Below, in pieces: positions 50,034 to 53,876 of a stretch of 64,000 bases of DNA. A program made the translations under genes and the position numbers. The first letter of the stretch is position 1, and the number at the start of each line of letters is the position of its first letter. Location: the NCBI RefSeq assembly GCF_000374165.1, contig NZ_KB893716.1, positions 62,001-126,000 of the forward strand, in the 5' to 3' direction. This stretch comes from Parafrankia elaeagni. GTDB lineage: Bacteria; Actinomycetota; Actinomycetes; Frankiales; Frankiaceae. A model generated the notes under the pieces. That model was not told where the DNA came from and ran no database searches. It saw only the letters and a program-made list of their open reading frames with translations.

Positions 50034-50158
50034 GAGTATAGCGTGACGCGCTGACGGGACATCATCACCCATATGACCACATGGGCGCCTTCAGCCCTTC
50101 AGTCCCGACGATCTCGGCGCGGAGGTTCCGCGCGGCACGGCATGCCGGCGGGAGCCGG

Positions 50159-50740
50159 TCAGCGCGCGTTCACGATGCGGAGGGCGAACTGGCTGTACTG
50201 CCAGACCACGGCGTCCTCGGTCAGCTCGCCGTCGGCGCGGAACCACACGGCGACGCCCATTCCCAGGTCGAGAATGGCGTACGAGGCCAGCCTCGAGGAC
50301 GCCACCTCGAACCGCCCCGCGCGGATACCGGCCTCGATCAGGTCACGGAAGCACCGCTCGTACTCCGCACGCAGCTCCAGTACACGTCCGCGGTGCGGCT
50401 GCACGAGGCTACGGATCTCACGGTTGCCGACGAACGCCTCCTGGTGGTGCCGCGCGTGGTACCGCACGTGCGCCTCGGTCGCCCGGCGCAGCCGTTCCAC
50501 CGGTTCCTCGGTGGTGGCGACGGCTGCCCGGTGGGCGGCCAGGAGCGCCTCCATCGTGCCGGTCATGATCTGCGCGAGCACGTCCTGTTTCGATGCCACG
50601 TGCTTGTACAGACTGGGGCCGCGCATGCCGACGGCGGCGCCGATGTCAGCCATCGTGGTGGCCTCGTAACCGAGGCGCGTGAACAGGTCGAGGGCCGCGG
50701 CACGGATCTGCGCGGACCGTGCCGAGCCGGTCAGGACCAC
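50159..50740 (-). CDS. TetR/AcrR-family regulator
   Basis: 193 residues. Helix-turn-helix TTMADIGAAVGMRGPSLYKHV; the ligand domain includes HARHHQEAFVGNREIRSL, as in KstR2/fatty-acid-type actinobacterial TetR proteins. It is divergent from the acyl-CoA dehydrogenase/kinase/SDR operon, with two similar 16-bp palindromes between them. It is the likely repressor of that operon and of itself. Confidence 0.9.
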   Translation of the reverse strand: MVLTGSARSAQIRAAALDLFTRLGYEATTMADIGAAVGMRGPSLYKHVASKQDVLAQIMTGTMEALLAAHRAAVATTEEPVERLRRATEAHVRYHARHHQEAFVGNREIRSLVQPHRGRVLELRAEYERCFRDLIEAGIRAGRFEVASSRLASYAILDLGMGVAVWFRADGELTEDAVVWQYSQFALRIVNAR

Positions 50741-50754
50741 CTGTCTCCCCGAGC

Positions 50755-50770
50755 GCTAACGGACGATAGC
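50755..50770. promoter_or_regulatory. TetR operator candidate, site 1
   Basis: GCTAACGGACGATAGC, a pseudo-palindrome 15 bases before the TetR start; 13 of 16 positions match site 2 at 50845. Confidence 0.65.
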
Positions 50771-50844
50771 GACGCCGCGTGTGCGCCGACGCGGCATTCT
50801 AGCCGAACCCCTTGCAGGCAACACGAAGCCATGACTAGCATCCG

Positions 50845-50860
50845 GCTAATGGTCGTTAGC
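50845..50860. promoter_or_regulatory. TetR operator candidate, site 2
   Basis: GCTAATGGTCGTTAGC, a pseudo-palindrome with GCTAA/TTAGC arms 26 bases before the acyl-CoA dehydrogenase ATG. Confidence 0.65.
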
Positions 50861-50885
50861 CCAGACGGTCGCCGCAGGAGATCCG

Positions 50886-52078
50886 ATGACTGTTGACCTC
50901 TCCCCCGAGCCCGCCGTCGCCGATCTTGCCCGGCGCACGGCGCAGTTCGTTCGTGAGGTGGTGCTCCCACTCGAGAAGCGGCAGCGCAGCGCCGCCCCCT
51001 CCGAGGCGGTACGCCGCGAACTGCAGGACGCCGCCCGGGCCGCGGGCCTCTTCGCCCCGCACGTCAGTACCGAGTACGGCGGCCACGGGCTGGACATGCG
51101 CGGCCGTGCCGCCGTCTTCGAGGAGGCCGGTACTCCCTGCTCGGCCCGCTCGCTCTGAACGTCGCCGCGCCCGACGAGGGCAACATGCACCTGCTGGAGG
51201 CCGTCGCGACCGACCGGCAGAAGGAGCGTTACCTTCGCCCGCTCGCCGCCGGCGACCTCAGGTCCTGTTTCGCGATGACGGAGCCCGCGCCCGGCGCCGG
51301 GTCCGACCCCCGGGCGCTGGTCACCCGCGCGGAGCGGACCAGCGGCGGCTGGCGCATCGACGGGCGCAAGTGGTTCATCACGGGCGCCGGCGGCGCGGGC
51401 TTCACGATCTGCATGGCCCGCACCTCCGGCAGCCCCGGGGACGCGGGTGGCGCGACGATGTTCCTGGTCGACACGGACAACCCCGGCATGAAGGTGGCCC
51501 GCCACATCGAGACGCTCGACGAGAGCATGTTCGGTGGCCATGCCGAGCTGGTCTTCGACACCTGCGAGGTACCCGACGACGCCGTTCTCGGCGAGGTCGA
51601 CGAGGGCTTCCGGCACGCGCAGGTCCGCCTCGGTCCGGCCCGGATGACGCACTGCATGCGCTGGCTGGGCATCGCCCGTCATGCGCAGGACATCGCGACG
51701 AGGCGCGCCGGCGAGCGCGAGCTGTTCGGCTCGCGGCTGGGCGAGCTGGGCATGGTGCAGCAGATGATCGCCGACAGCGAGATCGACATCGCCGCCGCGC
51801 GGGGCCTCATCCTGCGTGCCTGCTGGGAGCTCGACCAGGGCGACCCGGCCGCCCAGTCCACCGCGATCGGCAAGACGTTCTGTGCCGAGGCGGTGTGGCG
51901 GGTGGTGGACCGGTCGCTGCAGATCTGCGGTGCCCTGGGCGTGTCCGGGGACGTCCCGCTGGGCAGGTTCCTGCGCGAGGTGCGGCCGTTCCGGATCTAC
52001 GACGGCCCGTCCGAGACGCACCGCTGGGCGATCGCGCGGCGGGCACTCCGGCGGCAGGCGTCGGAGCTGGCCCGATGA
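50886..52078 (+). pseudogene. Acyl-CoA dehydrogenase with a frameshift (LvaC/ACAD10-11-like context)
   Basis: The first part from ATG at 50886 (AGGAG upstream) encodes the N-terminal helical domain to VFEEAG. The rest of the family sequence (YSLLGPLALNVAAPDEGN onward) lies in another frame from about 51131 to the stop at 52078. One base seems missing near 51131; restoring it would give an enzyme of about 397 residues. FAD/substrate blocks CFAMTEPAPGAGS and KWFITGA are present. It is coupled by ATGA to a kinase-like gene. Either a pseudogene or an assembly error; a separate start at 51185 could give a truncated protein. Confidence 0.8.
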
Positions 52079-53106
52079 GCACGGCCGTCGAGGGGCTGGA
52101 CCTGCCCGCCCTGGAACGGTTCCTCGCCGAGCGGGTGCCGGGCCTTCGGGGCGGGCTGACCGCGACGCTGCTGCCGGGCGGCCGCTCGAACCTGACCTAC
52201 CTGCTCACCGACGGGCGGACCCGCTGGGTGCTGCGACGTCCACCGCTGGGCGGGCTCACCCCGTCGGCGCATGACGTTCTCCGTGAGTACCACGTGGTGG
52301 CCGCGCTGTTCGGCAGCGGTGTGCCGGTCCCCCGCCCGGTCGTCGCCAGCGAGAACGGTCCGCTGGATGTGGCCTTCGCCGTGGTCGAACACGTTCCGGG
52401 GACGGTCATCCGTACCGAGGAGGAGCTCCACGCCCTCCCCCAGGCCGACATCGACCGGTGCGCCCACGCACTGATCGACGTGCTGGCCCGGCTGCATGCC
52501 GTCGACCCCGAGGCCGTCGGGCTGAGCACCTTCGGCCGCCCGCAGGGCTATCTGAGCCGCCAGATCCGGCGGTGGAACGACCAGTGGCAGCGTGTGCACA
52601 CCCGCGACCTGCCCGACATCGACGCCCTGCACGCCAGGCTCGCCCAGGCCCACCCGACCGAAAGCGGCGCGTCGATCGTGCACGGCGACTTCCGCATCGA
52701 CAACGTCATCCTGAGCCCGGACGACCCGGCCGCGGTGCGGGCGGTCATCGACTGGGAGATGGCCACCCTGGGCGACCCGCTCGCCGACCTGGGCCTGCAC
52801 ATCGCGTACTCGGATCCGGCCTTCGCCCCCGTGCTGGCCGGCTCGGCGGCGTCCACCAGCCAGCGCCTGCCGGATGCGGCCGCTCTCATCGAACGCTACG
52901 CCGCGGTCACCGCCCGGGACCTGAGCGCCTTCCCGTTCTACCTCGCGCTCGGCTACTTCAAGGTGGCGGTGATCGCGGAGGGCATCCACGCCCGGTACCG
53001 ACAGGGCGCAACCCGCGGCGCCGGTTTCGAGTCCGTCGGCGAAGCCACCGCCCCGCTCGCCGCCGCCGGGCTGCGGGCCCTGCGCGCGGACCTGGAGAAG
53101 CGGTGA
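52075..53106 (+). CDS. Aminoglycoside-phosphotransferase-fold kinase (LvaA/ACAD10-11 kinase-like)
   Basis: 343 residues from ATG overlapping the dehydrogenase stop (ATGA). Kinase landmarks: the Gly-rich LPGGRSNLTY, VLRRPP with the lysine position replaced by Arg, the catalytic HGDFRIDN and the metal site VIDWEMATLGDPLADL. In this gene context the fold is known to phosphorylate the hydroxyl of 4-hydroxyacyl-CoA before elimination by the dehydrogenase partner. It is not expected to be an antibiotic resistance gene. An SDR is coupled downstream (GTGA). Confidence 0.85.
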   Translation: MSTAVEGLDLPALERFLAERVPGLRGGLTATLLPGGRSNLTYLLTDGRTRWVLRRPPLGGLTPSAHDVLREYHVVAALFGSGVPVPRPVVASENGPLDVAFAVVEHVPGTVIRTEEELHALPQADIDRCAHALIDVLARLHAVDPEAVGLSTFGRPQGYLSRQIRRWNDQWQRVHTRDLPDIDALHARLAQAHPTESGASIVHGDFRIDNVILSPDDPAAVRAVIDWEMATLGDPLADLGLHIAYSDPAFAPVLAGSAASTSQRLPDAAALIERYAAVTARDLSAFPFYLALGYFKVAVIAEGIHARYRQGATRGAGFESVGEATAPLAAAGLRALRADLEKR

Positions 53107-53876
53107 GCACCAGCAACGTGCTGGACCTGTTCCGGCTGGACGGCAGGGTCGCCGTGGTCACGGGGGCCAGCTCCGGTCTCGGCGCCGGGTTCGCCCGAGC
53201 CCTCGGCCAGGCCGGCGCGGATGTCGTCCTGGCCGCCCGCCGCGCCGACCGCCTCCAGGAGGTCGCGCGCAGTGTGCGGGAGACGGGCCGGCGGGCCCTC
53301 CCCGTCGCCACCGACATCAGCACACCGGACGAGTGCACCGCCCTGGTGGAGAAGGCGGTCGCCGAGTTCGGCCGGATCGACATCCTGGTCAACAACGCCG
53401 GCGTCGGCAGCGCGGTACCGGCCCTCCGCGAGCAGCCGGAGGAGTTCCGCCGAGTGATCGACATCAATCTCAACGGCGCCTACTGGGCGGCCCAGGCCTG
53501 CGCCCGGGTCATGGCACCCGGGTCGAGCATCGTCAACATCGCCAGCGTTCTCGGGCTCATCAAGTCCTACGCCCCGCAGGCGGCTTATGCCGCCAGCAAG
53601 GCCGGCCTGATCGGCCTTACCCGTGACCTGGCCCAGCAGTGGTCCGGCCGCCGGGGTATCCGGGTGAACGCCGTCGCCCCCGGCTACTTCGCCAGCGAGA
53701 TGACCGCGGAGATCCCAAGGGACGCGCTGATGACCTTCATCGCCAGCACCAGTCCCCTGGGGCGTCTCGGCGAACAGCACGAGCTGGATGCCGCCGTGGT
53801 GTTCCTCGCCGGGCCGGGTGCCTCCTACATCACCGGCGCGACCCTCGCGGTGGACGGCGGAATGTCCGGCCACTGA
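53103..53876 (+). CDS. Short-chain dehydrogenase/reductase
   Basis: 257 residues from GTG overlapping the kinase stop (GTGA). Classical SDR: TGASSGLG, NNAGVGS, Ser in NIASVLG, YAASK and a C-terminal ITGATLAVDGG. By analogy with LvaD it could reduce a 4-oxoacyl-CoA to the 4-hydroxyacyl-CoA used by the kinase. It is the last gene of the operon, and a strong palindrome follows. Confidence 0.9.
   Translation: MSTSNVLDLFRLDGRVAVVTGASSGLGAGFARALGQAGADVVLAARRADRLQEVARSVRETGRRALPVATDISTPDECTALVEKAVAEFGRIDILVNNAGVGSAVPALREQPEEFRRVIDINLNGAYWAAQACARVMAPGSSIVNIASVLGLIKSYAPQAAYAASKAGLIGLTRDLAQQWSGRRGIRVNAVAPGYFASEMTAEIPRDALMTFIASTSPLGRLGEQHELDAAVVFLAGPGASYITGATLAVDGGMSGH

Follow-up and report, generated by a model that had tools for sequence, protein, structure and literature searches.

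What does a small operon of Parafrankia elaeagni do, in which a divergent TetR-family regulator faces genes for an acyl-coenzyme A (acyl-CoA) dehydrogenase, a kinase of the aminoglycoside phosphotransferase (APH) fold and a short-chain dehydrogenase/reductase (SDR), in a genome that lacks the levulinate-pathway protein LvaB? The operon lies in a 64,000-nucleotide window (contig NZ_KB893716.1, positions 62,001 to 126,000), the whole stretch of DNA analysed here, which is part of a 7.59 Mb draft genome. Its probable role is to feed 4-hydroxy (or 4-keto) acyl-CoAs into β-oxidation under TetR control, the kinase, an LvaC-type dehydrogenase and the SDR each contributing one step. The operon represents a variant, widespread in actinobacteria, of a pathway already known, to which it would add a two-class rule for the kinases and a candidate CoA-binding arginine, R162.

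The genes at 50159-53876 are arranged in the order TetR (divergent), dehydrogenase, kinase and SDR, and each is an open frame except the dehydrogenase, which occupies two:

50159..50740, minus strand: TetR-family regulator (TetR_N and TetR_C_24 by domain match), divergent to the operon
50756..50769, no strand: operator-like imperfect palindrome CTAACGGACGATAG, 1/12 mismatch to CTAACGNNCGTTAG (motif scan)
50846..50859, no strand: second operator-like palindrome CTAATGGTCGTTAG (motif scan)
50886..51158, plus strand: acyl-CoA dehydrogenase piece 1, N-terminal domain; in agreement with relatives over residues 1-82 and out of frame beyond
51131..52078, plus strand: acyl-CoA dehydrogenase piece 2, in another frame; R-x7-HCMR motif and catalytic Asp in YDGPSETH; LvaC clade
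52075..53106, plus strand: APH-fold kinase, ACAD10/11 (LvaB-free) class; catalytic-site D205, N210 and D226; Arg70 before αC Glu71; Arg162
53103..53876, plus strand: SDR, with a GTG start overlapping the kinase stop

The dehydrogenase TGA (52076-52078) overlaps the kinase ATG (52075) as ATGA, and a GTGA overlap joins the kinase stop to the SDR start codon at 53103. The frames and the domain matches (kinase to APH, E 1.4e-47; SDR, E 5.8e-64; dehydrogenase to the N, M and C domains of its family) confirm the coupling of the three genes beside a divergent TetR that the original prediction had described from the DNA letters.

Four residues of mouse ACAD11, R626, H634, R637 and the catalytic D753, are tied to 4-phosphoacyl-CoA in PMC12440821, and the window dehydrogenase has equivalents of all four (RLGPARMTHCMRW ... 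YDGPSETH). This R/H/R/D quartet is complete in 130 of 152 acyl-CoA dehydrogenase sequences, the window's included; 21 are without it and 1 is cut before the Asp. In a tree of 66 of the 152 (80% dereplication; matches under score or length limits were excluded before all trees), nearly all quartet sequences fall into two clades, ACAD11 (14 sequences, with 4hr3) and LvaC (36 sequences, with the window's). Each clade has support of 100/98 in the careful tree and an SH-like approximate likelihood ratio (SH-aLRT) of 98 in the quick tree; careful trees test each named group against the other named groups only, and quick trees take all sequences. Two quartet sequences, L173 and L181, lie outside both clades, and two members of the LvaC clade have lost the quartet. 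The window dehydrogenase is 53% identical to LvaC of L115, a Pseudomonas plasmid operon with an annotated lvaB that stands in here for the lva operon itself, and 37% identical to mouse ACAD11. The dehydrogenase piece is the top match to L115 LvaC in its own genome (E 1.9e-99), with a quartet-less paralog a close second (6.6e-97). The residue quartet and the position in the tree bear out the LvaC-like dehydrogenase of the original prediction, and the enzyme is predicted to be of the 4-phosphoacyl-CoA kind within the LvaC clade.

The kinase has another affiliation. The ACAD11 kinase (phmmer E 5e-48), 3dxp and 9o56 are among its matches, and its identity to LvaA of L115 is only 29% over 216 residues (blastp). 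A tree of 79 kinases, dereplicated at 75% from 157, has one very deep split, with an SH-aLRT of 100 in the quick tree and a fully supported branch in the careful tree. Class 1 comprises 18 sequences including LvaA, and is marked by DUF6285, the family to which LvaB of L115 belongs (PF19802, E 4.8e-24): 17 have a DUF6285 gene within 1.5 kb, in a sample that is not neutral, as DUF6285 itself was the reason for fetching the loci of 12 of the 17 and the dehydrogenase that for the other 5, and the eighteenth (L194) has one about 2.7 kb off. Class 2 comprises 61 sequences including the mouse ACAD11 kinase; 55 are free of DUF6285 over at least 1.3 kb to either side, and the other 6 are unlabelled (three PDB sequences and three near contig ends). 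The window kinase stands in class 2, on the ACAD11/3dxp/9o56 side, and not with LvaA.

The residues agree with the tree. The window kinase has D205, N210, D226 and R162 where ACAD11 has D220, N225, the DWE Asp and R176, the last of which was positioned at CoA by modelling (PMC12440821); D205, N210 and R162 are conserved. The R162 column holds Arg in 61/61 class-2 and 0/18 class-1 kinases, in a region where the alignment between the classes is variable. The Arg before the αC Glu (window R70) is found in 61/61 class-2 versus 6/18 class-1 kinases; R86, as numbered in PMC12440821, falls on no Arg by PDB chain count, and the Arg beside the αC Glu was used instead. The kinase is thus assigned by tree and residues to the ACAD10/11 class, with R162 as a candidate CoA-binding arginine, and the LvaA-like kinase that had been proposed does not stand. 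The phylogenetic check, whether both proteins lie outside the Lva and ACAD10/11 clades, leaves the claim of a 4-hydroxyacyl-CoA operon unrefuted.

In the proposed pathway the SDR would interconvert 4-keto and 4-hydroxy forms, setting the oxidation state of C4. The kinase, given its class, would then phosphorylate the 4-hydroxyl of the CoA thioester by means of its own CoA-contact residues and without LvaB. By analogy with LvaC and ACAD10/11, the dehydrogenase would use an Asp base and transiently its flavin adenine dinucleotide, and the phosphate, held by the Arg/His/Arg cluster, would be expelled to yield 2-enoyl-CoA. Expulsion of phosphate to form 2-enoyl-CoA is described for LvaC and ACAD10/11 in PMC11342911.

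Growth of Pseudomonas putida on levulinate requires LvaB, according to PMC6692424. The lack of LvaB that was first noticed at the locus extends to the whole genome, in which DUF6285 is absent (all 41 candidates scored). The accompanying idea of a minimal variant is not required: the absence goes with the kinase class, and it need be neither a minimal state nor a loss, because the kinase belongs to the LvaB-free class. The window genome also has no strong class-1 kinase (all 113 candidates scored, best E 8e-38), its six matches to a class-1 profile being its six known kinases, the window's included. When the same profile was run on 296 genomes of the taxonomic class, with 7 or 16 candidates scored per genome, 39 strong matches (E ≤ 3e-81) were found. 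An independently found DUF6285 lies no more than 500 bp from 32 of them and no more than 4 kb from 38; the one without a nearby DUF6285 starts 154 bases from a contig end. The ten kinases behind the profile are all DUF6285-adjacent and include five from the 296 genomes, which makes this test not fully independent. None of the 22 weak matches (E ≥ 4.9e-57) in these genomes is near DUF6285, and five short or low-scoring DUF6285 sequences in four genomes have no strong kinase nearby. Four further annotated plasmid class-1 regions have DUF6285 as well, two as an annotated adjoining gene and two as an unannotated one detected via Pfam (one partial), and a fifth such region carries no annotation. 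DUF6285 is named in no paper found in a literature search.

Kinase class and dehydrogenase clade do not coincide. Among 122 dehydrogenases with the motif, a sample biased to the window type, an LvaC-clade dehydrogenase goes with an ACAD11-class kinase in 84 cases and with an LvaB-class kinase in 5, an ACAD11-clade dehydrogenase goes with these in 16 and 3 cases, and 14 LvaC-clade enzymes have no kinase within 3 kb. All four pairings occur, which suggests an evolutionary exchange of kinase and dehydrogenase parts. This leads to a tentative model, which we rate somewhat short of an even chance: two ancient classes of 4-hydroxyacyl-CoA kinase have been swapped between dehydrogenase clades, one class depends on LvaB because it lacks the CoA-gripping arginines (window R162 and R70) of the other, to which the animal and window kinases belong, and LvaB is a substrate-recognition subunit. 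The distribution of these arginines at most suggests that LvaB supplies acyl-CoA recognition to the class without them. Mammalian ACAD10/11 are not known to contain an LvaB-like part, and the window operon indicates that bacteria too run the pathway with an LvaB-free kinase. The class split is clean enough for a prediction from sequence of which kinases need LvaB and which residues replace it.

The operon is conserved in parts. Relatives of the window kinase were found in at least 543 stretches of named genomes, of which the best 80 were compared; the nearest named one among the matches listed is in Parafrankia colletiae, with 98% identity of the kinase, though records closely similar to that of the window may have been excluded. 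A dehydrogenase piece at least 60% identical lies directly upstream of the kinase in 68/80, so the pairing of dehydrogenase and APH-fold kinase that was originally noted is a conserved one. Both pieces are in one frame in 65/68, the exceptions being L058 (two-frame remnant), L086 (contig end) and L095 (same frame, match gapped). Directly downstream of the kinase there is an SDR at least 60% identical in 18/80 and another SDR in 24/80; a TetR at least 50% identical is present in 26/80 loci, and dehydrogenase, SDR and TetR are all present in 10/80. Because this linkage recurs across the 80 relatives, the gene arrangement is not due to chance. The two palindromes between TetR and the operon represent a motif picked after the window had been inspected; no other site in the 64 kb has ≤2 mismatches (8 sites have ≤3), and 22/25 of the TetR-operon gaps of relatives hold a site with ≤3 mismatches (L037 skipped).

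Several observations weigh against the proposed function. The frame break in the dehydrogenase may be real. Seven Pseudonocardia loci (L045-L049, L052 and L057) keep TetR and kinase without an adjacent dehydrogenase, and L058, of the Pseudonocardia group, keeps only a C-terminal two-frame dehydrogenase remnant, with no TetR found at that locus. The SDR is not clearly an LvaD, and no scanned neighbour points to a substrate.

The first two observations raise the alternative of a decaying operon, in which the dehydrogenase is a true pseudogene and the kinase works with another dehydrogenase in trans or is itself being lost. An intact dehydrogenase frame was not found at the locus in the window genome; the gene is in two frames in the assembly, as the earlier mention of a "repaired" dehydrogenase implied. 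A dehydrogenase directly upstream of the kinase is lacking in 12/80 relatives, among them the seven Pseudonocardia loci and also L109, which has a 41% identical one farther upstream, and the Pseudonocardia loci indicate that the pair is not obligatory in cis. The genomes concerned are not devoid of the enzyme, an R-x7-HxMR dehydrogenase being encoded elsewhere in 12/12 genomes searched (11 of the 12 lacking genomes, L051 being excluded, and the L058 genome; two are near-copies), with the catalytic Asp seen in 11, and P. elaeagni itself has other such dehydrogenases. The block 50141-53817 is 97.5% identical to that of P. colletiae over 3678 bases with two single-base gaps, at about 50150 (outside genes) and about 51128 (inside the dehydrogenase). 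Against decay, both dehydrogenase pieces are in one frame in 6/6 congener copies (L007-L012). Relative to P. colletiae, the ratio of nonsynonymous to synonymous substitution (dN/dS) is 0.12 in one dehydrogenase piece and 0.16 in the other, compared with 0.30 in the kinase and 0.08 in the SDR (first 238 residues). The low values on either side of the break give no sign of long decay and, together with the uninterrupted congener frames, lead us to read the break as either an error in the sequence or a single-base change of very recent date. Decay is a serious but rather unlikely explanation.

It is also conceivable, though unlikely, that the operon follows the same chemical logic on another hydroxylated acyl-CoA, with a branched, terpenoid or steroid side chain. 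In the genome of P. elaeagni the R-x7-HxMR and Asp signature is also present in four other dehydrogenases (C48, C61, C2:374794 and C52:4242), two of which adjoin LvaB-free kinases, and the genome seems to hold several 4-phosphoacyl-CoA modules. Five signature dehydrogenases, the window's included, and six kinases suggest several substrates, as do the varied neighbours of related cassettes. In 31 close loci, among the matches listed and apart from the four cassette genes, an AMP-binding-enzyme frame is found in 7 (L056 and six others), a thiolase frame in 5 (L038 and four others) and a P450 frame in 5 Pseudonocardia loci. The recurring AMP-binding-enzyme and thiolase frames fit fatty-acid-type catabolism, in favour of the probable role given at the outset; no common substrate follows from these neighbours. 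What speaks against a different acyl-CoA class is that, in the enzymes assayed, these residues go with 4-phosphoacyl-CoA (PMC12440821, PMC11342911).

A true levulinate operon, with the same chemistry, levulinate or 4-hydroxyvalerate as natural substrate and the SDR as LvaD, is quite improbable. Its three functions equal those of lvaA, lvaC and lvaD, the dehydrogenase is in the LvaC clade with the same motif, and the SDR is 40-42% identical to two LvaD proteins. This last identity is not decisive, since 33 SDRs of the genome match L115 LvaD at E ≤ 1e-20 and the window SDR is the second of them (40%), not the top match. The kinase is of the other class, LvaB is missing from the genome, the gene order is dehydrogenase-kinase-SDR, unlike that of the lva operon, and a TetR replaces the PrpR-like LvaR. 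L115 has synthetase and symporter genes, whereas the three nearby genes scanned by Pfam in the window encode a periplasmic binding protein, a second TetR and a GDSL lipase; neither a CoA ligase or transporter nor LvaE, LvaF, LvaG or a PrpR-like LvaR was found among the TetR and these three, no wider scan of the window having been made. Related cassettes have yet other neighbours, such as the AtuA-family and carboxylase genes in Rhodococcus WAY2.

It is barely credible that the kinase acts on antibiotics or sugars and has nothing to do with acyl-CoA: its APH fold and its weak matches in NCBIfam (thiamine kinase, APH(3') and Mph), which are far below cut-offs, are outweighed by the tree and residues that group it with the ACAD11 kinase, on which an antibiotic phosphotransferase is rejected, and by its position directly downstream of a quartet dehydrogenase. 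Many genes labelled only "phosphotransferase family protein", in the stretches with relatives counted above, probably encode acyl-CoA kinases and not resistance proteins.

The proposed 4-hydroxyacyl-CoA operon of P. elaeagni shares with ACAD10/ACAD11, of which the ACAD11 sequence was compared, the kinase class, the catalytic and CoA-contact residues and the dehydrogenase quartet, but consists of two separate proteins with a dehydrogenase of the LvaC clade. Other close systems are operon L114 on a plasmid of Cupriavidus oxalaticus and a number of cassettes in Nocardia, Rhodococcus and Mycolicibacter (e.g., L063, L087 and L101), which likewise combine an LvaC-clade dehydrogenase with an LvaB-free kinase but have other regulators and, in many cases, another SDR or none. 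Among the papers listed by a literature search on 4-phosphoacyl-CoA in Actinobacteria, only those on ACAD10/11 and Pseudomonas citronellolis were on topic, judged by title.

A Frankiaceae dehydrogenase that is 57% identical to the window enzyme and lies inside the LvaC clade (G000:C50:18086-19006; L163 7844-9019) has lost the quartet. In this protein and in L169, L170, L187 and L188, R, F, S/A/N and E replace R, H, R and D, and no kinase is found in the stretch fetched around this type. It is apparently a reversion to ordinary dehydrogenase chemistry. In four actinobacterial DUF6285 loci (L122, L128, L197 and L200) the kinase and DUF6285 stand beside a quartet-less dehydrogenase (ENRIRQAASS ... 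RITEG), which may mean that the LvaB-class kinase also serves another chemistry. In several operons of the LvaB class (L245 2586-6694, L113, L118 and L249) the gene after DUF6285 encodes a histidine phosphatase, and such a gene also adjoins the LvaB-free kinase of L203. In P. citronellolis, the cluster reported to lack lvaB (PMC6692424) has a histidine phosphatase preceded by a gap in the numbering of its open reading frames, and for these two reasons an LvaB in that cluster may have been overlooked.

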